From contig OZ005697.1 of assembly GCA_963930775.1 (NCBI GenBank), positions 5,168,292 to 5,232,291 of the forward strand: a DNA stretch of 64,000 nucleotides, in the 5' to 3' direction. The stretch is from Cliona cf. orientalis (Eukaryota > Porifera > Demospongiae > Clionaida > Clionaidae). Shown here in pieces: positions 3,106 to 56,032 of the stretch. The notes under the pieces are model-generated. The model searched no databases, had not been told where the DNA came from, and worked only from the letters and a program-made list of their open reading frames with translations. The translations under genes were made by a program, and so were the position numbers. Each line of letters begins with the position of its first letter. The first letter of the stretch is position 1.

Positions 3106-3821
3106 ATATATTTTTACTGCAAAACGATGATTTTTTAACAATAAAAATTCGCGGTTTACAGTGTACTACAGTAATCCAGTGGCAATTTATTTTTCTGTGG
3201 TTATGAGGTAATTATGATAAATTTAGTGCATATTTGGAGCCTTTCTGGGACCTGAAAATCAGTAAATATGTGTAGAGTACCATAGTATTATGTGTGTATC
3301 CAGTGAATACCGGTACTTTACAAGCAGTGTGTTACCTTCAAATTGGCTTACAGTTATGTATCCCGTGGACAAATAAAGCTAATATAAGCCTTGCAAGCAC
3401 GATGCATTAAATGATCATGTGCCATGCAATGACCGAGCTTAAGTTCAGAAGCTGTCACAGTACTGCGCTGTCAAATTCATCTCTGCAAGAGTAAATAAGG
3501 AGGGAATCTCTGTGATTGAAGCATCAAAACTTATTACTATTAATTTTGAGGTCAAGAACCAATCTCAGACTCCCTCACTCTGTGATTGAGGTGCTGGTAT
3601 CAATATAGTCTCGCGCAAGACTACTACATAGTATCGTTATATTGACAATCATTTACCACATGCACCATTACTACTGGAAATATTATGGTCAAGTGTTTCA
3701 TACTTTTATTGTAGTGATTGAGACCAAGCCATCTTTACTTGATTTCTTTGCTAAAATTGACTTGAAAGATGGCAAAATAATATATTAATGCATGAGTCAA
3801 GTATCACAGAATCAAGTTTAC

Positions 3822-14900: not shown

Positions 14901-17900
14901 CCGCTACAGCTGTTAAGCCAGCAGTCCAATTGTTGCAGATCCAGGAAGTGCATCCAGTGGCACATTCCAGTGCATGCAAGTTTTGCCGTTTTTATCTATT
15001 TTTCTTACTTGTTCTATCTAGGCCATCTTTCACTCCTAGGACTCCAAACAAAGACCAAAAGTCAGAGAAACTCTTCTACTTTCTGTTCGTTCAAGTCCTA
15101 TAATCCGGAGACATTCATGAGCTCCGCGGCAAGCGCTTTTGTGCATGCTACTTGCAAGCGCTCACAAAAAGTGCCTCGCGCAAAAAGTGATACATTTTGG
15201 TTCCCCTAGATGATTCAAGCACCATTCAATAGCTCTTGTGTTGCTCTACAATATAACACTGGAACGAAGTTTTTCCATCGAGCAGTTCCAGAGGTACACG
15301 GCATAAAAAATCAGAAAATTTCAGTACAACCGTGTGGCATTCTTCTGTATCTTCACACGATTTCTCCAAGAATGAGCCAAGGAGAAGAGTGCTCACTATG
15401 AAGCTTCAAGTTTCTAGGGCCTTCTAAGCTAGTGAGGAGGCGTCATCCAGATGGATAGTTTCTGTACTGGAGTGAAGGTTGGTAGTACATTCTATATTCT
15501 TATAATCGAGTGCACCGCGTGTGAGGCAAGTAACTATAGCTAGATTTATATGTAGATCTATAGATCAGGCAAGTAATAAAGTACAGGGATGAGGGCGAGC
15601 CTTACCAGCTGAAATGGCTAAAGAATAGAAAGGAATCTCAGTGTTGTACCTGTGCCATAATTGTTTGACATCGATGCTGAACTTAAAGCACGAGTTCACT
15701 TGGGGTCTATTCAGTAAATTATCTAGGTGATCGGCACTCTCCCACCTGTCTGTATCTCACCCCACCCCCTCTCTCCCTCCCTCTCTCTCTCTCTCCCTCT
15801 CTCTCTCCCTCTCCCCCCCCCCCCCCTCTCTCTCTCTCTCCCTCTCTCTCTCTCCCCCTCTCCCTCTCTCTCTCAAAGTGCTGAGAGAACTCAATTTACT
15901 GAGGTACTCAGTCATACTGCCTGCAGCTGCTTGAGCAGTTTCTCTGTCAACCAATGGCTGTCATGATGGCATAGGAGACTGGTTATGAAAGCTTCAACAA
16001 TCTTCAAGAAGGCCTTTGATAGCTTGAAAGCCTTGTATCACCTAGAAAGATCTGTGTTATCATTGATTTGTACATAAATTATACAATATTTTTACGTTGA
16101 AAATACAGTTTTTGCACTATGTTTAATAGGGTGTAACTTTGGAACCGCTCGATGGAAAAACTTCATTCCAGTCTTATAATATTGTAGAGCAACACAAGAG
16201 CTATTGAATGGTGCTTGAATCATGGGAATCCATCCAGGGAAACCAAAACGTACCACTTTTTGCGCGAGGCACTTTTTGTGAGCACTTGCGAGTAGCATGC
16301 ACAAAAGCGTTTGCCGCAGAGCTCATGAATGTCTCCAGATTATGGGACTTGAACAAGCAGAAAGTAGAAGAGTTTCTCTGTCTTCTGGTCTTTGTTTGGA
16401 GTCTTAAAAGTGAAAGATGGCCTAGATAGAACAAGTAAGAAAAATAGATAAAAACGGCAAAAATTGCATGCACTGGAATGTGCCACCGGATGCACTTCCT
16501 GGATCTGCAATGCTTGTACGTGTTTTGGACCACTGGCTTAACGACTGGCTATACAGTATATTTAAGGGTGGTGGACACTGGGATAATTTCACTCCCTTGA
16601 GAGAGTCTTGCCCTCCAAGTCCATGTATATTATAGTATACATGTAGCTCATGGTGCATGGAACCTGCAGGACACACATGTAGGAGTATCCTGTATTCAGT
16701 GTTAAGTTCTATCATATAGAGTGTATACACGTGCAATTTGTACATTGTAGCAATATGTTCAAGTAGTTGACTGTTCGATACTACATTATACTTCATCATT
16801 TGAGTTGTCACTACTCGACTTCATTAATCATGATGTAGGGATGTCTCCCATAGTATTAGTCTTCCATCACTACCACCCTTGTTTTGGTGCCCTGCAATGT
16901 CATAGTATCATCAAGGGCTTATAGACCCCTTAGGAGTCTATAAGCCTGGTATCATAATTATACTGAACTAATTACTGAGCTAGCTACATGTACTCACTAC
17001 AGAAGATGCCATTATTTTGTTACATGTAGATGTACATGTACTACCGTAGATCGGGAAATTTGCATCATTAAAAATGTTTTCGTCGACGATCTTTCCCAAC
17101 GAAAATTAAATACACGAAATATTGTGCATGTTAATGTACAATGATTTATCGTATATTGAACTTTTACCCGTAATACAAACATATGGGAAATGCGTGGGTG
17201 GCAACACGTATGATAATTTCCCATATCAGTCGTGTTCGTCACGTGCAAAATCCATATCAGTCGTGTTCATCACATGATCGCCATATATAGTGTTGAAACG
17301 TTGAACACATTGAACACCATTCACTTGCACAGAGGAGAAAGTGAGTTGCTGCTATCAGTCATTTTCGTTGCCCGAGTTAGATAAATGAGCCACGGTGCCG
17401 CTGCCCTTACCTTACTTAGCTATGCCTTAGTCTTCGGTGCCTGAAATGACAGCGGCCATTGCCAAAACTTAAGCAGTCCCTTCTTAGCTTTGCTGCTCGA
17501 TTATCATGCACCTGTCGATGGTGACCCATTGGTGCTATCCTTATACTATTTCAAATATTGTATGCATGTGGGAGAAATTCGCTATCCTCAAAAAGAGGGT
17601 ACTGCGGTGAGGGATAATCGGTTTAATCATCGCATTATTGACTGGGTTGTTAGCTTAATTCCTGCACCTACTCAAAAAGCAAGCGTAGGGATGTATAGTG
17701 GATGTGATTATCCCTACAAATCTTATTTGTGTACTTTTTTACCCTGCCATCCCTACTTCATCTTTCAATTACATTATTTTTTATGCTTGTTTCTGTTCTT
17801 TTTTTATTCGATAATTCATGAATGAACACAGTTTTCCCATTAACTCATATATATTTCCAGACAGAGGCAGCTGCAGTTAAGGTTACGGGATAGTGTTCCG

Positions 17901-20900
17901 CCCACGCATGGTCAAAGTTCACATGAATAATAAATAAGACAGTTATATTCCAGTTTTTGTCCACGTTCTTTGCACAGTCAAGGCACAGGTAAGTAGCTCT
18001 CCTGATGCCTGCCCCATGGTCCACAAAAACTAAAAGCAAACCTGCCACTGTCTGTCTGCAAGCACGGGTAAGTTTTGCAATTTTCTGCGTCAGTTTTTGC
18101 CAAGATAGCTTACGAGTCTCTAGAGGGCCAAGTATAGCGTTTGAACTCTGTCGAGCTATACGAACAGGAAGCGAACATAAAAACTTACTGCTCAGCTGCC
18201 ATGTGACTCGCTTAATGGCGGCCCTCCAGGACAAAAGTTTATCTGACGACTCACCATCTTAGAGTTTTCGAAAAAGCGCTATACTTGGTCCTGCTCCGAT
18301 CGATGGACTATCATGAACGACAGTGAAGTTAGTTCGTTCGAGTCTCTGGTCTTCAAAAGTTGACGCAGAAATTCGAACTCTTGTTTACAACTGGAAATGG
18401 TCGACGTTCGTTCGCGTTTCCGACTAAACTGCATTAAAACATACATGAACTGTGTCCGTGCGCAATCATTTATAAATTGCGCGTCGAATACTATCCCGTA
18501 ACCTTAACGGATGCCTTGCAAATAATGTATGTATATGTAATCCTTCACCACTTGCCATGAGGCAGGGGCAATGTAAGTACTATTCTGAATCTCATGTTGG
18601 TGGGCCAGGGGTGCATCCACATGGAAGCTACACATGCAGCACCATGCACTCGAAGCAATTGCAAATTTTGTTGTCTAAAAACTGTTTTCTGATGGTGGCT
18701 AAGATTTCTAATAATTTGCAGACCACACCAAGCCATCAGTTTTTAAAGGATTATCATAATTAAGCATAAACCAGGGTTTTTTTTTGGAAAGAGGTAGTTA
18801 TGGACAATGTAAGTATTGCGTATTCATATTCTGTTTCACACAATTTTAGATGGATCTTCAAATCTAAAAGCAGGATGCAAGGAGAATGCCTTCTACGATG
18901 CGTTGGATGCCATTTACGTGTTATGTATTTTTTTATGTAAAATTATCATCCTTGTCCAGTGATGGCATGCACCATTTCCAGGGCGTAGCCAGAAATTTTT
19001 TATATTGAGGCAGGTAATAAAAATTGACGAATTTTTAGCCACACCCCCTTAATGGACAAACCACACCCATTTTCGGGTGTCTACCGCGATCGTAACAACA
19101 TAGAAAGTCTTCTCGAGTCTAGAACGGTGCACAAAGTTGTTTTATTGACATTACATCATCTCAGAGAGAGACATCCATCTTGCTCTCTTAGAGATGGAGC
19201 TACACATGCAGTGAAAGTTCAAGTGCTTAGTCAGCTAACAAACTTGTCATGGCATGCACGCGGCTCGGTGAGTGTTGTTATGTATTTAAGTATATAGCTG
19301 GCTGAGTTGATGACCGAGGCAGCTGCCTCGGTTGCCTCAATGGTAGCTACGCCCTTGCCATTTTCAGCTCTTTACCAGCTGTAATATAATACATATGTGC
19401 ATGTGCTTGGTATTTGCATCCCGCATGCACTAACAGAGGTGGGTGGAGACATGGGTAAGGGGTCTTTCTATAGCAGTGTAGGTTGTACTCGAGTCTGTTA
19501 TTTGCAATCTAGTGCTGCTCCTTTTGTTGGTGATAGTGCTATCTTTCCTTCTCTACCCTATCAAGGATAGCGAGTGCGCAACAGTCGTAGCCACGTCCCT
19601 CATTAGTTTGTCGTTTAATATCTAGCCTCGTATCACGGCCGCACCCCGCATGGCCCCTGAGCTCTAGAACAGTCAGCTCAGTGACTACTCGTTCCCAGAC
19701 TCAGAGAAGCTACTATCAACAATAAACTTACTGGCCTCTAAGATTGACTAAGTTTTTCACGATCTTGCGCGCTAGCACCTTCTTTTAGCTCTGCATTAGC
19801 GCTCACGCACACACTATGGCACGCGCGGCGCCACTGACTCCTGTCACATGACTTCACCATAGCAACACATTGTGAGCGTGCGCATTATATGACAAGATGG
19901 CGAATCAGACACACCCACTCTCAAAATGCGCTGTACTCAACCTACGATTAAATGGCTGTCATGATACCACAAAACTAGCGTGCCACAGACGTGCACGCTA
20001 CAAAATGGAGTAGATTTATAGTCAAACCAAGGTTAGCGGCCCAGGGAGTCTTGAGTTAGCCCTGGTAATGAAAAGGAAAGAATGAGAAAATGCACTTTCT
20101 TTACAATTTTAAAAACAGCTAGTTCAGGCATACCTGATTGTTTCCATGGATGTTTCAGGGCTTGATAGATAGACATTTTGGCGTAGATCATGAATATGTA
20201 AGTTAAAAATCTTAAAAATTTTTCTGCTCTGAGTTATTGTTTTATATTACATGTATGGCATATCCGGGCCATCCCTACTTATAGAGTCAGTATTACACAT
20301 ACGTACGTTAGTGTATGGAACGAAAATTAGACTACACGAAAATTTAACAAGTGAAATATTTTACCGGCGAAAATATCCTGATCTATGATATTTTATGAAG
20401 TTAGTATAATTATATAGAATTTGGAATAATGCCGACAAAAGGTGATAAGTAAGCCGACTGTAGGGCTCACCTGCCTGGCTCATGATCAGCCTCTTTACAG
20501 CATTATGCACGCAAATTTGTTAATTTCGCAGCAATTCTGTGCACGAGCTACACCGCCTGGATCATAGAAGCACTTGATCGTGGGTATGTTAGTTAAAACT
20601 TGATTGCGTACATACATGTATATGCATAGGAGTACATTGCCGCAGCGCCGTACTCGAAAACGCTTACTCGAAGATGCTTGACCAACAATGAAACCAACAG
20701 GCTTTTGCATAGTCGCTTCTGAAACTGAACCAAATAAGTACATGTAGCTCAATTAAGTTGTTGATGTGGCGGTGCATGGGATACACTCACTGTTGCAAGA
20801 AGAAAGAAGAAAAATGCGAAAGCACTATTTATGTCCCCCTTGGGTTCCGTATATAAATGACCCTTTCAGTGCATATCAATAGATTTTCTAAGTGTAAAAG

Positions 20901-48460: not shown

Positions 48461-48986
48461 ATATACAAAAAGCCCCGAAAAACTTAGTCCAAATCTTTTA
48501 AGCTTACTAACGGACTTGACTTTGCTTTCCAGACATTTTGAGAGCATCTTGGAAAACCAGTACCAACCAGGCGGTATCAAAGACTTCATTTCTATAACTT
48601 TATTCCACTTTACAATGTACAGATCTGATAATTATTAAGGTTACGGGATAGTGTTCCGCCCACGCATGGTCAAAGTTCACGTAAATAATAAATGAGACAG
48701 TTATATTCCAGTTTTTGTCCACATTCTTTGCACAGTCAAGGCACAGGTAAGTAGCTCTCCTGATGCCTGCCCCATGGTCCACAAAAACAAAAAGCAAACC
48801 TGCCACTTTCTGTCTGCAAGTGCGGGTAAGTTTTGCAATTTTCTGCGTCAGTTTTTGCCAAGGTAAACAGTTTCTATGTAATGACATACAAATGAAATGA
48901 TAGCTTACGAGTCTCTACAGGGCCGAGTTATACGAACAGAAAGCAAACATAAAAACTTACTGCTCAGCTGCCATGCGACTCGCTTA

Positions 48987-48995
48987 ATGGCGACC
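48987..48995. repeat. left 9-bp target-site duplication of the DUF6589/RecQ element
   Basis: atggcgacc, repeated at 53381-53389. Extending outward, taatggcgacc (11 bp) is shared if the two terminal TA bases are counted as target rather than element. Confidence 0.85.
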
Positions 48996-49068
48996 TAGTC
49001 ATACAAATGCTAATAATAATTTATTACGCGTTTTATTTTGCGCTTGCGCATCTAAGAACCGTGGCAAA

Positions 49069-50188
49069 ATGTCCGTGTTCTGTCTCGCGTGTGGACAAGC
49101 CGTTGCGGCAAATGATCGACGAATCCTCCGCAATGAAGCTTCAAGTTACGTACGCGTGATGTGGCAGCGCCTTCTTGATGATAAGCTGGAGCAAAACAGC
49201 CTGTCTTTTTTCTGGAGTGGGCCTATCTTCAGCCCTATGGGCGTTCTTAGTGGTCTTTGACCCATCACTGTGCCTGTGCCTACCTTATATAGTTTATTTG
49301 ATTCACCTCCAGGCATAGCTCACTTATGTGGGCACCCTTGCTCCAATATAATATATTATTTTTTAGATTTCAGAGGCTTGCTTGGAGAGACTGTCTGGGG
49401 GTGCTGTATCCACAATGTTCACTTCTGACGTTGACGCTAGATCAGACAATGAGGAATCCATTCATGATGCCACCTTGGAGTTTTCCTTTGATTTATCTGG
49501 TGATTTAGACCTTACCTCTACTCCTGCTAAATCAACCAGCATTGAAGATGACTTGAGATCTGCTTCAGAAGCCTCTTCACCTGTATCCTTTATTGCTCCA
49601 CCATTTTCTCCTCTACCAACCCTGGGCTCACCCTTGAGTGAGCTTCAAACCAATGATCAGAGCAGCACCGTAGCTTCAGGTGGTGATTCCAATCTGCAAG
49701 TAGCAACAGCTCCAGAAGAGAACAACATCCAGTCTTCAGAAAAGGAGCGAGGAATGAAGATAGTTGGTGATAATATTGACAAGACTGTCCACACCAGGTT
49801 CATGCGGGTGGACAAGCAAGGTTCATCCCTACACTATTTCAATGCTTATGCTGCACAGGATAGATTTGATTTAACAATGCCTGAAGATGTTCCTGCAATT
49901 CCAGATGATCCGAAGCTATTTGAAGACTTGCTACCATCCAACAGTGACAAAATCACCCTAAAGGAATATTTTGCGATTCATGTTGCACGCATTTTGTGCA
50001 AGTATATACCTTTCTTTGCAGAAGATTTCGGTGATGTCATCCCGGAACACCTTGATCATCCAATGTCCTCAGAGATGAGACAGAAATCCCAAGTGGTTAG
50101 TATCACATTATGTGCATATCCTCAAATTTATTGCATGTGTGCTACAGCAAGCATATTATTGTAACAAGCGACAGGGAGGGAGAGTATC

Positions 50189-50219
<31 letters not shown>

Positions 50220-51760
50220 TGAGGGATATCTGTTGCTGCATCTGTACTCATAATTATGTGTGAGATTTAGCACTTTTCAATCAGACTTAATAATTGTATT
50301 TGCTAAATGAGCAGCTGCAGTTAATGCATAATATTACACTTATAATATCTGCATACAATGCTTACATTGCATATATTATAGGCACCTCTCGGAGTGTTCC
50401 TCAAAAATGAGAACAAACTAGATGAAATGGTTGACATTCTACAGCACCTCCAGAAATATGCTCCATCCACATCTCACACCAGAGAGGTATCAGTTCCCAC
50501 CACCAATGAAGGAAGATCCTTGACTGAAATTGCTTTTCATCGGCTGCTATTTGGTGGTGACCAGCTCACAGCTAAACGTGCTAGAGGAGGAGTACGCATC
50601 AGGAATAATTCAACGAATAGTGCAGATCGCCTGGAAGGACTACTTCCTGTTGCTGAAGATTGGCACGCAAAAGTGATATTTTTGGAGGTAATTAATTTTA
50701 ACAATTAAATTTTGTTTAACAAAATAATTATCATAATTAAATTTTAATTGTTAAGGTAATCTGGAAAAGATTGTACAAAGCAGCTTCTGCTAAAGACTTA
50801 GGAACAATTTTTCAGCTCAGGAATGTCATCAATAGGAAGAATATTGGGAAGAAGCCAAAGAAAGATGTGAATGCTCATGAAGATTTTTTCCAACAAGTAG
50901 TTGAGAGTCATGTGCTGGCTGCTGCAATGGAATTTTTTGGAATGGACGACATTGAAGATGACCCAAATGCAGAAATATTTCCCCCTACTCTGTGGATGCT
51001 TGAAAAAGAAGAGCGCTATGCAATCTTGCTCTCAGTATGTGGAAGCATTGTTGATGAGTTCACAGACATCCACACATTTGAAACAAGCCCAGATCAAGGC
51101 GACAAAGGGAAGCAAGATCAGATACTTGCATATGCAAAGGAGGTTATGTCGTTTGGGCTATTGTACACAGAATTAGTTGATGCAGTCCGTGAAGGTGATG
51201 GATTACGTGTTCTTAGATGGTGGAGGTTTATGCTGCTGATTTTTAAAGCTACCAGCCGAAAGAATTACAGCATAGAAGCTTTCATATTATTAGCCCAGTA
51301 TCAGTATCTACTCAGTCCTAGAGAGAAATCTCAGCTCTTATACAGTCGATTTATCAATACACACGGTCTTCCAGGACGAAACATCAGTTGCGACTTATAT
51401 ATGGAGCACTTAAACTGACTGCTCAAGGACGCCATCAAAGCCCTAGGAGCTAATAAGACTCCTAAAGCTATTGATCGTGTTAGTGAATGTATTGCTCCAC
51501 TTGATGAACTTTTGGAGAGATTTGATACCATACATAACTATTCTCCACAGTCTGATTGTCACAAAAATCCTAGTGCAACAAAGGATATTACCATTATGTT
51601 GGAGCAACTACGCAAAGCAGATGTATTCCACAGTACACATGGGCGCAAACATCACGCGTTCAGCAACTTTAGTAATAATCCTGTCATATCCTTGAAACAA
51701 AAAGATGTCAGTGAATTGATGAAATCACAATGGACAAATTTGTTAGCAGGATTGCTATAA
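49069..51760 (+). CDS. DUF6589-like protein, candidate transposase (one in-frame stop)
   Basis: The start ATG at 49069 opens MSVFCLACGQAVAANDRR. This Cys-x2-Cys beginning suits the zinc-binding N-terminus of the family. Exon 1's donor is uncertain (between about 49218 and 49260). Then come exons 49367-50095, 50382-50687 and 50756-51760, joined in phase 0. Exon 2 has an acidic Ser/Thr/Pro linker and then GDNIDKTVHTRFMRV with SLHYFNAYAAQDR. Exon 3 has LGVFLKNENKLDEM, FGGDQLTAKRARG and LLPVAEDWHAK. Exon 4 has IWKRLYK, LRNVINRKNIGKK and VVESHVLAAAMEFFGM. The conserved acids in GDN-D and GGDQL plus a downstream Glu suggest an RNase H-fold DDE enzyme (inference). A TGA at 51416-51418 interrupts exon 4, but the same frame stays open and coding-like for 113 more codons to the TAA at 51758-51760. 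The gene lies inside the element at 48996-53380. Confidence 0.78.
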
Positions 51761-51772
51761 TCAACCTCATAA

Positions 51773-53142
51773 TTAGTTAAACAACACCTGAGTTTCACAA
51801 TTGTTACAGTCACAGCTAGTACTACAGATATCACAACATGAACAACCACTATTTGTTGAGTTAAAATCATCAAAGTCACAAAATAAAGTATGCCTACGAC
51901 AGTTATCTTGATTTGTACAATACTTGACCATGGATTCATCTACATGTCTCTTTAATCCTTTACTGAATAACATTATGGCATGCGAAATTTTGCCATCTCT
52001 ACCTGCTCTTCCTGTTGCCTGTACATACTGTTCAACATCTCCTGGTGGTCCCCAATGCACAACATACCGGATATCAGGGGTATCAATACCCATGCCAAAA
52101 GCTATTGTAGCTATGACAATTCGTAGAGGTGATGATGGCTGTGTAAAAGCTTTCAGTACGCAATCTTTGATAGACGCATGTGTGGCACTCGTGAAGTAAT
52201 CAAAGAGACGAAATTCGGGTAGATCTGGTGCACCAATAGGTTCCAAACGCTCTTCCTTTAATGTTAACTTCATGAGCAAATAGAGTTGGGCACAATTATC
52301 TTGGTTTTGACAGTAGATAATGGTCCTAGGCATGTTAATACGCTCATTCCTCAATCTTTCCATTAAGGTGTTAAAAGTAGTCTCCATAGATTCAAAAGGG
52401 AGCACACTATAAATGATATTAGGCTTATCAACATTTTCACTCACAATTAAGGTATTAATCATGCCAAGGGTCTTGATGACACATTTTCTTAGGGACACAG
52501 TGGCTGTTGCGGTCATAGCAAGAATGTGTACACCATCAGGCAAAATACTTCTCAGCTCCCCCAGGCGTGAGAACTCCCTTCTGAATTCTTCTCCCCTACA
52601 TGTTTATTGTGATAATAATTGTGTCCTTAGCTCTGTAGTTACTTGGTGATTTACCATTTTTTGACGCAATGTGCCTCGTCAACTACGAGTGCAATAAGTT
52701 TATCTTGGTAATATTCACTTTGGCACATACAACGAAATCTTCTATTGTTAATCAGCTGTTCAGGACTTATGAACACAAGTTGATACTTCCCTTCCAAGAT
52801 ACCAGCTTTCATATCCTCATATTCTACATCACCATCTGAAGTCACATACGCCGTAGAAACGCCCCCCTTTCTGAAAGATTGGACTTGGTCCTTCATCAGT
52901 GCTATCAATGGTGAAACTATGAGTACGATTGAGCCTTGGGTTCCCAGCAACCTATCACGGGCTAGAGGTAGACAACCATAGCAAAGACTTTTTCCATACC
53001 CGGTAGGGAGAGCAGCGAAAACATCACGACCAGACAAGAACGATGTGATAACTTCTAGCTGTTTCTCCTTCAATGACATATAGCCTAACTCAGCGCTTGC
53101 TGTCTTCACTGCGTCCTCGAGCTTCTCCACCGTTCCCGACAA
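51773..53142 (-). CDS. RecQ-type superfamily 2 DNA helicase borne by a transposon
   Basis: Two minus-strand exons, 52655-53142 and 51773-52595, separated by a 59-bp GT/AG intron, give 436 residues with no internal stop. Motifs in order: Q-like motif at 21-38 (LKEKQLEVI), Walker A ALPTGYGKS (44-52), motif Ia VSPLIALMKDQV, DEAH (about 156-159), TATAT (191-195), motif V ATIAFGMGID, motif VI QATGRAGRDG (355-364). A Cys cluster (CTNQDNCRRHTLFCDFD ... CSCCDIC) matches the RecQ zinc-binding region. There is no winged-helix or HRDC extension, so it is a minimal RecQ. Host RecQ enzymes unwind 3'-5' at forks and recombination intermediates; here it sits inside a transposon and probably helps its replication or excision (inference). 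The start ATG at 53142 is 13 bp from an internal TAGTCTCG motif. Confidence 0.9.
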
Positions 53143-53154
53143 GATAGCGCGTAA

Positions 53155-53380
53155 CTAGTCTCGCGGGCCAGCCTCTCTTACGAGTAACCGCGAACTTTAT
53201 TGTATACGCGTACTATTTAAGCAGCTACTTCGCGTGTTGCGTACGTCCCGGATGGTCATGTGACTAGATTCTGCCATTTCATTGGTAGTTCATATAGCCT
53301 ACACGGGGACAAGCGGATGTAACATTATTTACCAGACCCTTTCTCCCTCTTTGGGTAGGAGGGGCTGGCGAGCGAGACTA
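53155..53380. repeat. subterminal inverted repeat at the right end of the RecQ element
   Basis: TAGTCTCGCGGGCCAGCC then TCTCTTAC (53155 onward) is complementary to the extreme right end GTAGGAGGGGCTGGCGAGC then GAGACTA. The whole 226 bp looks like a MITE of the same family, but its left flank (gcgcgtaac) does not match the right flank (atggcgacc), so it did not insert separately. It overlaps the likely RecQ promoter. Confidence 0.65.
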
Positions 53381-53673
53381 ATGGCGACCCTCCAGGACAA
53401 AACCTTGTCTGACGACTCACCATCTTAAGAGTTTTTGAAAAAGCGCTATACTTGGCCCTGCTCCGATCAATGGACTATCGTGAACGATAGTGAAGTCAGT
53501 TCGTTTGAGTCTCTGGTCTTCAAAAGTTGACGCAGAAACTTGGACTTTGTTTACATCTGGAAATGGTCGACGTTCGTTCGCGTTTCCAACTAAACCACAT
53601 TAAAACATACATGAATTGTGTCCGTGCATAATCATTTATAAATTGCGCATCGAATACTATCCCGTAACCTTAA

Positions 53674-54545
53674 CCCTCGGTGCATGTGGGAGGGGTACGG
53701 TAGTTGTTCTGTGTATGTGTCCGTGTGTGTGTGTCTGTTACTGCGCCAGCTGCTACATGTCTGTTTTATATGTTGAAAACAAAGTGCCATTAGGCTTTTT
53801 GTGGTAGTTTCAAGATCTGAATTGTGTGGATTCGTTGAAAACGCTTTGTTCAAAAGTTCTGGCGACATTTGCTGACCACCGCTGCCTTCTTCACTTCTTG
53901 TCGAGCTCTCGATCAACCAAAATGACAGCAACCGCTTCATTTCAAGAAGATTAGTGTGTAGGTCTAGCGATAGTTCTTATAACTCAACCGACTCATCACT
54001 AGTCACTGTAGGCTATCAACGACACTTCTTGGCTTTACTTTGTACTAGTATTAGATCCTACTTGTGACAAATACAGTGATCTGATTGGTTGAACTGCAGT
54101 ATCTAAAAAACCTTGTAACCTCCATAAAAACCTGGTAAATTTTTTTGCCTATGGCTAGTTTGTTGCTAGGCATTAATTTTGTTCATATACAAAGCTTTTG
54201 GGCATTGTTGCTAGGATCTAAAGTAGTTAGATACTTTTTAGTCGGTTTCTACGTGATTTAGAAGACCTCGGGGCTGAGTAGAACCCTCGCTTCACTCGGG
54301 ATTCTACATACAGCCCTTCGGTCTTCTAAATCACGTAGAAACCTCTTAAACAGTGTCTAACTATTATTAGATCTGCTGATCTGGCACGTACGTGGTACTA
54401 TTACGTAATGCTGTGCAATCTGTACAGTACAGTGCATTCTTGTGGTTACTCCAACAGTGTTGCTGGCTTACAAATTTGCAACATGTAGAGTAGCTGTACT
54501 CTGTCACTACTAGTAGTGCAATAAATGTCACAGCGCCGAGGGTTT
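53674..54545. mobile_element. copy F of the AACCCTCGGCGC repeat with internal insertion
   Basis: It begins CCCTCGGTGCATGTGGGAGG directly at the TTAA of the preceding MITE and ends GCGCCGAGGGTTTTGCACC. About 54049-54362 is a separate insertion containing the hairpin at 54244-54352. The flanks of that insertion reveal the unoccupied target of the 44049-44600 element in copy E. Confidence 0.6.
54244..54352. repeat. hairpin with 24-bp perfect stem
   Basis: GGTTTCTACGTGATTTAGAA then GACC pairs with GGTC then TTCTAAATCACGTAGAAACC across a ~60-base loop. A relative at 7560-7645 preserves part of it. It is non-coding. Confidence 0.75.
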
Positions 54546-55382: not shown

Positions 55383-55386
55383 TTAA

Positions 55387-56028
55387 GGTTACGGGATAGT
55401 ATTCGATGCGCAATTTATAAATGATTGCGCACGGACACAATTCACGTATGTTTTAATGCGGTTTAGTTGGAAACGCGAACGAACGTCGACCATTTCCAAA
55501 AGTCCAAGTTTCCTGCGTCAATTTTTGAAGACCAGAGACTCGAACGAACTGACTTCGCTGTCATTCACGATAGTCCATTGATCGGAGCAGGGCCACGTAT
55601 AGAAAAACTCTAAGATGGTGAGTCGTCTGACGAGGTTTTGTCCTGGAGGGCCGCCATTAAGCGAGTCACATGGCAGCTGAGCAGTAAGTTTTTATGTTCG
55701 CTTTCTGTTCGTATAACTCGACAGAGTTCAAACGCTATACCTGGCCCTGTAGAGACTCGTAAGCTATCGTTTCGTTTGTATGTCATTACATAGAGGCTGT
55801 TTACCTTGGCAAAAACTGACGCAGGAAATTGCAAAACTTACCCGCACTTGCAGACAGACAGTGACAGGTTTGCTTTTCGTTTTTGTGGACCATGGGGCAG
55901 GCATCAGGAGAGCTACTTACCTGTGCCTTGACTATGCAAAGAGCGTGGACAAAAACTGGAATATAACTGTCCCATTTATTATTCATGTGAACTTTGACCA
56001 TGTGTGGGCGGAACACTATCCCGTAACC
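55387..56028. mobile_element. TTAA-flanked MITE copy 3 (intact, inverted)
   Basis: A 642-bp element with ends GGTTACGGGATAGTATTCG and CACTATCCCGTAACC, with TTAA on both sides (55383-55386 and 56029-56032). It is in the opposite orientation to copy 1. It preserves GGGCCGCCATTAAGCGAGTC, the unbroken form of the site occupied by the 4.4-kb element in copy 2. Confidence 0.88.
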
Positions 56029-56032
56029 TTAA

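Follow-up and report, generated by a model that had tools for sequence, protein, structure and literature searches.

What kind of genetic unit places a gene for a DUF6589 protein beside a gene for a RecQ helicase, between well-defined borders in sponge DNA? We addressed this question for the element at positions 48996-53380 (4,385 bp) of a 64,000-nucleotide stretch of contig OZ005697.1 of Cliona cf. orientalis; this whole stretch is called the window below. With a probability of roughly 88%, the element is an AcademH-type DNA transposon in which the DUF6589 region is the DDE catalytic domain and a minimal RecQ gene lies convergent to the transposase gene. There is good support for DUF6589 as the transposase of one mobile unit and for RecQ as its accessory protein. 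This kind of transposon is already published as AcademH, and the find is largely ordinary.

The element is flanked on each side by the 9-bp target-site duplication ATGGCGACC. The 10-mer AATGGCGACC has two matches in the window, both at the duplication sites, and none of 100 shuffles contained two matches. When the flanks were joined and compared with the window, the repeat interrupted by the element was found unbroken at two other places (Table 1), each 89% identical, and both of these copies read TTAATGGCGGCCCTCC across the insertion point. The locus is an insertion that duplicated 9 bp of its target, and the empty site is also available. An earlier note on this DNA had described exact borders, a 9-bp duplication and an interrupted repeat present unbroken twice elsewhere in the window, and our comparison recovered both the borders and the empty sites.

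The two genes are convergent, with 12 bp between their stops (51760 and 51773), just as the earlier note had it. The Pfam match to DUF6589 falls on two exons in the window (1.4e-9 and 1.9e-28), and the first DUF6589 open reading frame (ORF) taken alone is under the Pfam cut-off (E 0.16). Exons are numbered here after the relative L047, whose transposase has 1,111 aa on six predicted exons, all of them open; the window keeps exons 4-6 and the start of exon 1. The L047 protein matches DUF6589 at residues 585-1046 (4.5e-59), and the Pfam scan of its 1,111 aa gave no other family at E <= 1. Since Pfam gives no N-terminal match in L047, there is no support for DNA binding by the N-terminus with its Cys residues. 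The Asp, Asp and Glu of the GDN-D, GGDQL and MEHLN motifs are kept across the alignment rows displayed, as expected of a DDE transposase. A further lineage of DUF6589 ORFs (L070-L072) has the motif variants GDNVD, SGGDQ/SGGDH and NEHINK/NEHVNK. The species of the nearest named relatives, Ephydatia muelleri, Amphimedon queenslandica and Dysidea avara, point to a sponge as the host, and a profile search with the first family alignment returned 11 proteins, all named Ephydatia muelleri or carrying Em gene identifiers.

The RecQ gene occupies 51773-53130 on the opposite strand in two exons, and it is open from stop to stop over 440 codons after removal of the predicted 59-bp intron. DEAD and Helicase_C domains are recognised in its product, which matches the solved structure of E. 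coli RecQ (1oyw) at 1.7e-53. The RecQ of the window had been called complete and minimal; GTG stands at 53128-53130 where the copies L009 and L010 have ATG, and the zinc-binding part scores 21.3 bits against a Pfam cut-off of 25, that is, just below it. The ratio of nonsynonymous to synonymous rates (dN/dS) was 0.21 for RecQ exon 2 of the window against L009 and 0.46 for the transposases of L062 and L064, both values being based on few changes and having little weight. Synonymous differences were saturated between lineages in five of seven codon comparisons, which gave no ratio.

The genome (216.8 Mb) was searched for both proteins; only the best candidates were scored and the counts are lower bounds. 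At least 122 DUF6589 matches were merged to 102 loci, and at least 149 RecQ matches to 132 loci. RecQ was found within 3 kb at 73 of the 102 DUF6589 loci, compared to a chance expectation of 0.4% per locus, and the two genes were convergent in all 73. The remaining 29 loci could have represented a helicase-free DUF6589 lineage, and this candidate was rejected: a RecQ profile was applied to 12 of them and detected at every one a divergent, convergently oriented RecQ downstream on the opposite strand, which brings the loci with RecQ beside DUF6589 to 85 of 102. The DUF6589 proteins at these 12 loci belong to a divergent lineage (23-36% identity over matched exons to P0001, a homologue from Ephydatia), and they carry a more distant RecQ. 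Pfam alone gave only weak RecQ matches at the divergent loci, together with one weak match to another family. This second, divergent DUF6589/RecQ lineage (L054-L065 and L069) has a RecQ that is missed by ordinary protein search; L069 was outside the profile scan and shares 98.7% identity with L055 across 5.4 kb spanning the RecQ region.

Full-length relatives with both ends measure 5.5-7.0 kb, where the earlier note had proposed searching for linked copies of 4-5 kb. Their terminal inverted repeats start with TAGTCTCG in the lineage of the window or TAGCCTCG in the second, divergent lineage, of which the four copies whose ends were read (L056, L062, L064, L069) start with TAGCCTCGTCCCCAG. The repeats match over 70 bp in L009, 77-78 bp in L047/L068 and 80 bp in L062/L064; in L056 and L069 they span 97 bp, and in L050 about 65 bp with 82% identity. 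An exact 9-bp duplication was found in seven of the eight two-ended full-length relatives assessed, L062 having 8 bp; this tally leaves out L048, L049, L052, L053 and others. The duplicated sequence differs from copy to copy, being GGTGAGAAC in L009, CTAAAAACG in L047/L068 (6,023 bp), GGTAAAGGG in L050/L066 and GTTGGCCAC in L051/L067, and L056, L064 and L069 also have exact 9-bp duplications. L056 has two tandem right ends with the duplication at the outer one, and the right end of L055 was not found within the stretch retrieved. The near identity of L050 and L051 (99.5%) and of L055 and L069 points to recent movement. In the earlier note, copies whose genes were never linked or never bounded by the duplication would have spoken against a mobile unit; what the genome holds is a recurrent convergent pairing and bounded relatives, and this objection is rejected.

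Short derivatives keep the left inverted repeat and about 365 bp of the right side, of which about 115 bp belong to the 5' end of RecQ. They form one multi-copy non-autonomous family (L013-L015 and L017-L045) with the RecQ 5' end between inverted repeats. Both ends were present in 27 of the 32 short loci examined, 24 of these 27 being 420-500 bp long; one of the genome searches behind this set scored the best 40 of 657 candidates. The 9-bp duplication was exact in 15 of the 27 and had at most one mismatch in 18, and each other length from 2 to 14 was exact in 0-2 of the 27. As a control, the left flank of one copy was paired with the right flank of another, and this gave one exact match in 702 pairs. 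When the ends were allowed to move by as many as three bases, exact 9-mers were obtained in 19 short loci.

These features agree with the published description of AcademH. AcademH elements of the Academ superfamily encode a helicase and make 9- or 10-bp duplications (PMC10045372), and the lineage is cited to Kojima 2020, Mob DNA 11:15, the title of which names animals and fungi (PMC10045372, PMC10799480). The Cliona element likewise carries a helicase and a transposase in one unit, its partner being of the RecQ type and convergent, and its 9-bp duplications are within the published range. No difference from AcademH was seen in this comparison, which covers the helicase and the duplication length only. 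AcademX, of the same superfamily, has a nuclease gene and duplicates 3 or 4 bp of its target (PMC10045372); in contrast, the element here has a helicase partner and 9-bp duplications, and AcademX was rejected for this reason.

Several points weigh against the AcademH assignment or limit the evidence for it. In nine of the 27 two-ended short derivatives the chosen ends are not flanked by a 9-bp duplication even if one mismatch is allowed, 17 of the 102 DUF6589 loci lay outside the profile scan, and 59 of the 132 RecQ-like loci have no adjoining DUF6589 match. No copy was shown with both genes intact, L009 having transposase-frame stops and a RecQ frameshift and L047/L068 a broken RecQ frame. 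All exons are predictions from the DNA sequence. In addition, the predicted fold of DUF6589 is weak around the motifs and has no confident match. Two AlphaFold2 models of P0001, from 32 and 38 alignment rows, reached a mean predicted local distance difference test score (pLDDT) of 56.3 and 62.5, respectively, with much of the motif region below 50. Foldseek and VIA-align, used on the 38-row model only, gave no confident match (best Foldseek E 0.13, for a low-confidence model), and a PDB profile search with alignment A5 had no match at E <= 10. The low-confidence models neither support nor refute an RNase H-like core in DUF6589.

The assignment to AcademH is based on its published description, and this leaves some room for a new helicase-encoding superfamily that is separate from Academ and has nothing in common with it but a helicase partner and duplications of 9 bp. 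We consider this improbable, since a helicase with 9-10-bp duplications is the very pair of features given for AcademH in PMC10045372. What favours novelty is that Pfam still lists DUF6589 (PF20231) as a domain of unknown function, and that neither the name DUF6589 nor its identification with this transposase was found in the literature searched, the papers listed for PF20231 being unrelated by title.

A KolobokH-type element, in which a Kolobok transposase is accompanied by an accessory RecQ, is less probable still. Kolobok elements duplicate TTAA, whereas the duplications here are 9 bp long and varied in sequence, and KolobokH was rejected on these grounds. The likeness lies in a RecQ carried with a DDD/E transposase: PMC9587614 places RecQ downstream of the transposase in KolobokH and describes a RecQ on the complementary strand in Kolobok-1_CCri. 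The same paper states that KolobokH occurs in fungi only and gives a C/DxxH motif for Kolobok, and visual inspection of the alignment stretches displayed (residues 716-764 of P0001 not among them) showed no conserved C/DxxH column. Finally, DUF6589 and RecQ might be host genes within a repeat or segmental duplication, as could be suggested by RecQ being a normal host family, by the RecQ-like loci away from DUF6589 and by several of the weakest of the 149 RecQ matches (short stretches in long frames, like general helicases). This reading can be dismissed: the 102 DUF6589 loci are spread over many contigs, the convergent pairing recurs, and there are inverted repeats, duplications, an empty site and bounded full-length copies at unrelated places.

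The copy in the window is defective and now most likely immobile. A sister element, L009 on contig C2, is 94-99% identical to it over the common parts and has both ends: it starts with TAGTCTTGCGCGCCAGCC, closes with the inverted form of the same repeat and has GGTGAGAAC on each side. Compared to L009, the window copy has no left terminal inverted repeat beyond TAGTC, about 160 bp being gone (about 563-721 of L009), and it lacks about 1.5 kb of transposase exons, in place of which stands a filler of about 150 bp with 95-99% matches at C1:14045249 and C17:3833636. There is also an in-frame TGA in the transposase where L009, L010 and L011 have arginine. The element had been described as self-contained, and this does not hold given these losses and the GTG in RecQ; similarly, TAGTC and GACTA, which had been taken as its ends, are remnants of inverted repeats of about 65-100 bp in the relatives. 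L009 is itself decayed, with a foreign insert besides its stops and frameshift. An insert of about 390 bp (1490-1875) interrupts its transposase exon 2, and a GA microsatellite in a transposase intron is short in the window (about 50188-50220) and about 140 bp long in L009 (about 3300-3447). At the right end of the window copy, an inner inverted repeat turns the last 225 bp into a unit that has its own TAGTC-like ends; a 9-bp duplication was looked for at the flanks of this inner unit and none was found. The features are listed in Table 1.

Table 1 Features of the element and of its insertion site. Coordinates are those of the window; exons and catalytic residues are predicted or candidate features.
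Feature	Coordinates	Strand	Basis
Target repeat, unbroken (empty site)	17877..18508		Joined flanks compared with window
Interrupted target repeat, left half	48635..48995		Joined flanks compared with window, 89%
Left target-site duplication ATGGCGACC	48987..48995		Duplication search; empty-site copies
Probable AcademH-type transposon copy, internally deleted, decayed	48996..53380		4,385 bp
TAGTC, remnant of left terminal inverted repeat	48996..49000	+	Comparison with L009
Transposase exon 1, 5' part (MSVFCLACGQAV..., Cys-containing N-terminus), truncated by deletion	49069..49199	+	Comparison with L047 exon 1
Filler DNA at internal deletion, about 150 bp	49200..49344		Matches on C1 and C17
Transposase exon 4 with GDN-D motif (candidate for first catalytic Asp)	49367..50095	+	Motif rows of relatives
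Transposase exon 5 with GGDQL motif (candidate for second Asp)	50382..50687	+	Pfam; motif rows of relatives
Transposase exon 6 with helical part of DUF6589 and MEHLN motif (candidate for Glu); in-frame TGA at 51416-51418	50756..51760	+	Pfam; motif rows
RecQ exon 2, Helicase_C and sub-cut-off RecQ zinc-binding part	51773..52595	-	Pfam; 1oyw match
RecQ intron, predicted, 59 bp	52596..52654	-	Gene prediction
RecQ exon 1, DEAD domain; GTG at ATG of sister copies	52655..53130	-	Pfam; comparison with L009/L010
Right terminal block with inner inverted repeat (53156-53181 against 53355-53380)	53156..53380		Repeat comparison
Right terminal inverted repeat, 79 bp, ends GACTA	53302..53380	-	Common to L009, L047/L068 and short derivatives
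Right target-site duplication	53381..53389		Duplication search; joined flanks
Interrupted target repeat, right half	53390..53674		Joined flanks compared with window
Second unbroken target repeat (empty site)	55383..56032	-	Joined flanks compared with window

Movement is most likely by cut-and-paste, with a DDE transposase acting on the inverted repeats and a stagger of 9 bp. The transposase would bind the inverted repeats and cut by means of two Asp, in GDN-D and GGDQL, and one Glu, in MEHLN; strands would be joined at positions staggered by 9 bp. RecQ may open the ends, or aid strand transfer or gap repair. The presence of RecQ beside DUF6589 in 85 of 102 loci argues that the helicase is useful to the element, perhaps in opening ends or guiding repair. 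The window copy lost its left end and part of the transposase gene, either later on or through gap repair that failed; both the filler where its internal sequence was deleted and the many derivatives with internal deletions suggest that repair of the gap failed after excision, a reading that draws on what is known of other transposons.

The earlier note had proposed a transposase role for DUF6589 and an accessory one for RecQ. The pairing and the bounded relatives strengthen this proposal, and the idea is not new given that AcademH is published. For the Pfam family of unknown function, the results point to a function, namely that DUF6589 is a transposase. A more far-reaching and doubtful view is that the PF20231 family in its entirety is a DDE transposase coevolving, in several deeply divergent lineages, with a dedicated convergent RecQ. 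Transposition would then be helicase-assisted: the helicase would be obligatory and strand opening would set the 9-bp stagger. The link between helicase and duplication length is itself inferred from sequence in PMC10045372, where it is worded as "seems related", and a genome in which several DUF6589/RecQ lineages have bounded copies would make that link testable. For sponge gene sets, here that of Ephydatia muelleri, the DUF6589 proteins most likely represent transposases and ought to be masked accordingly.

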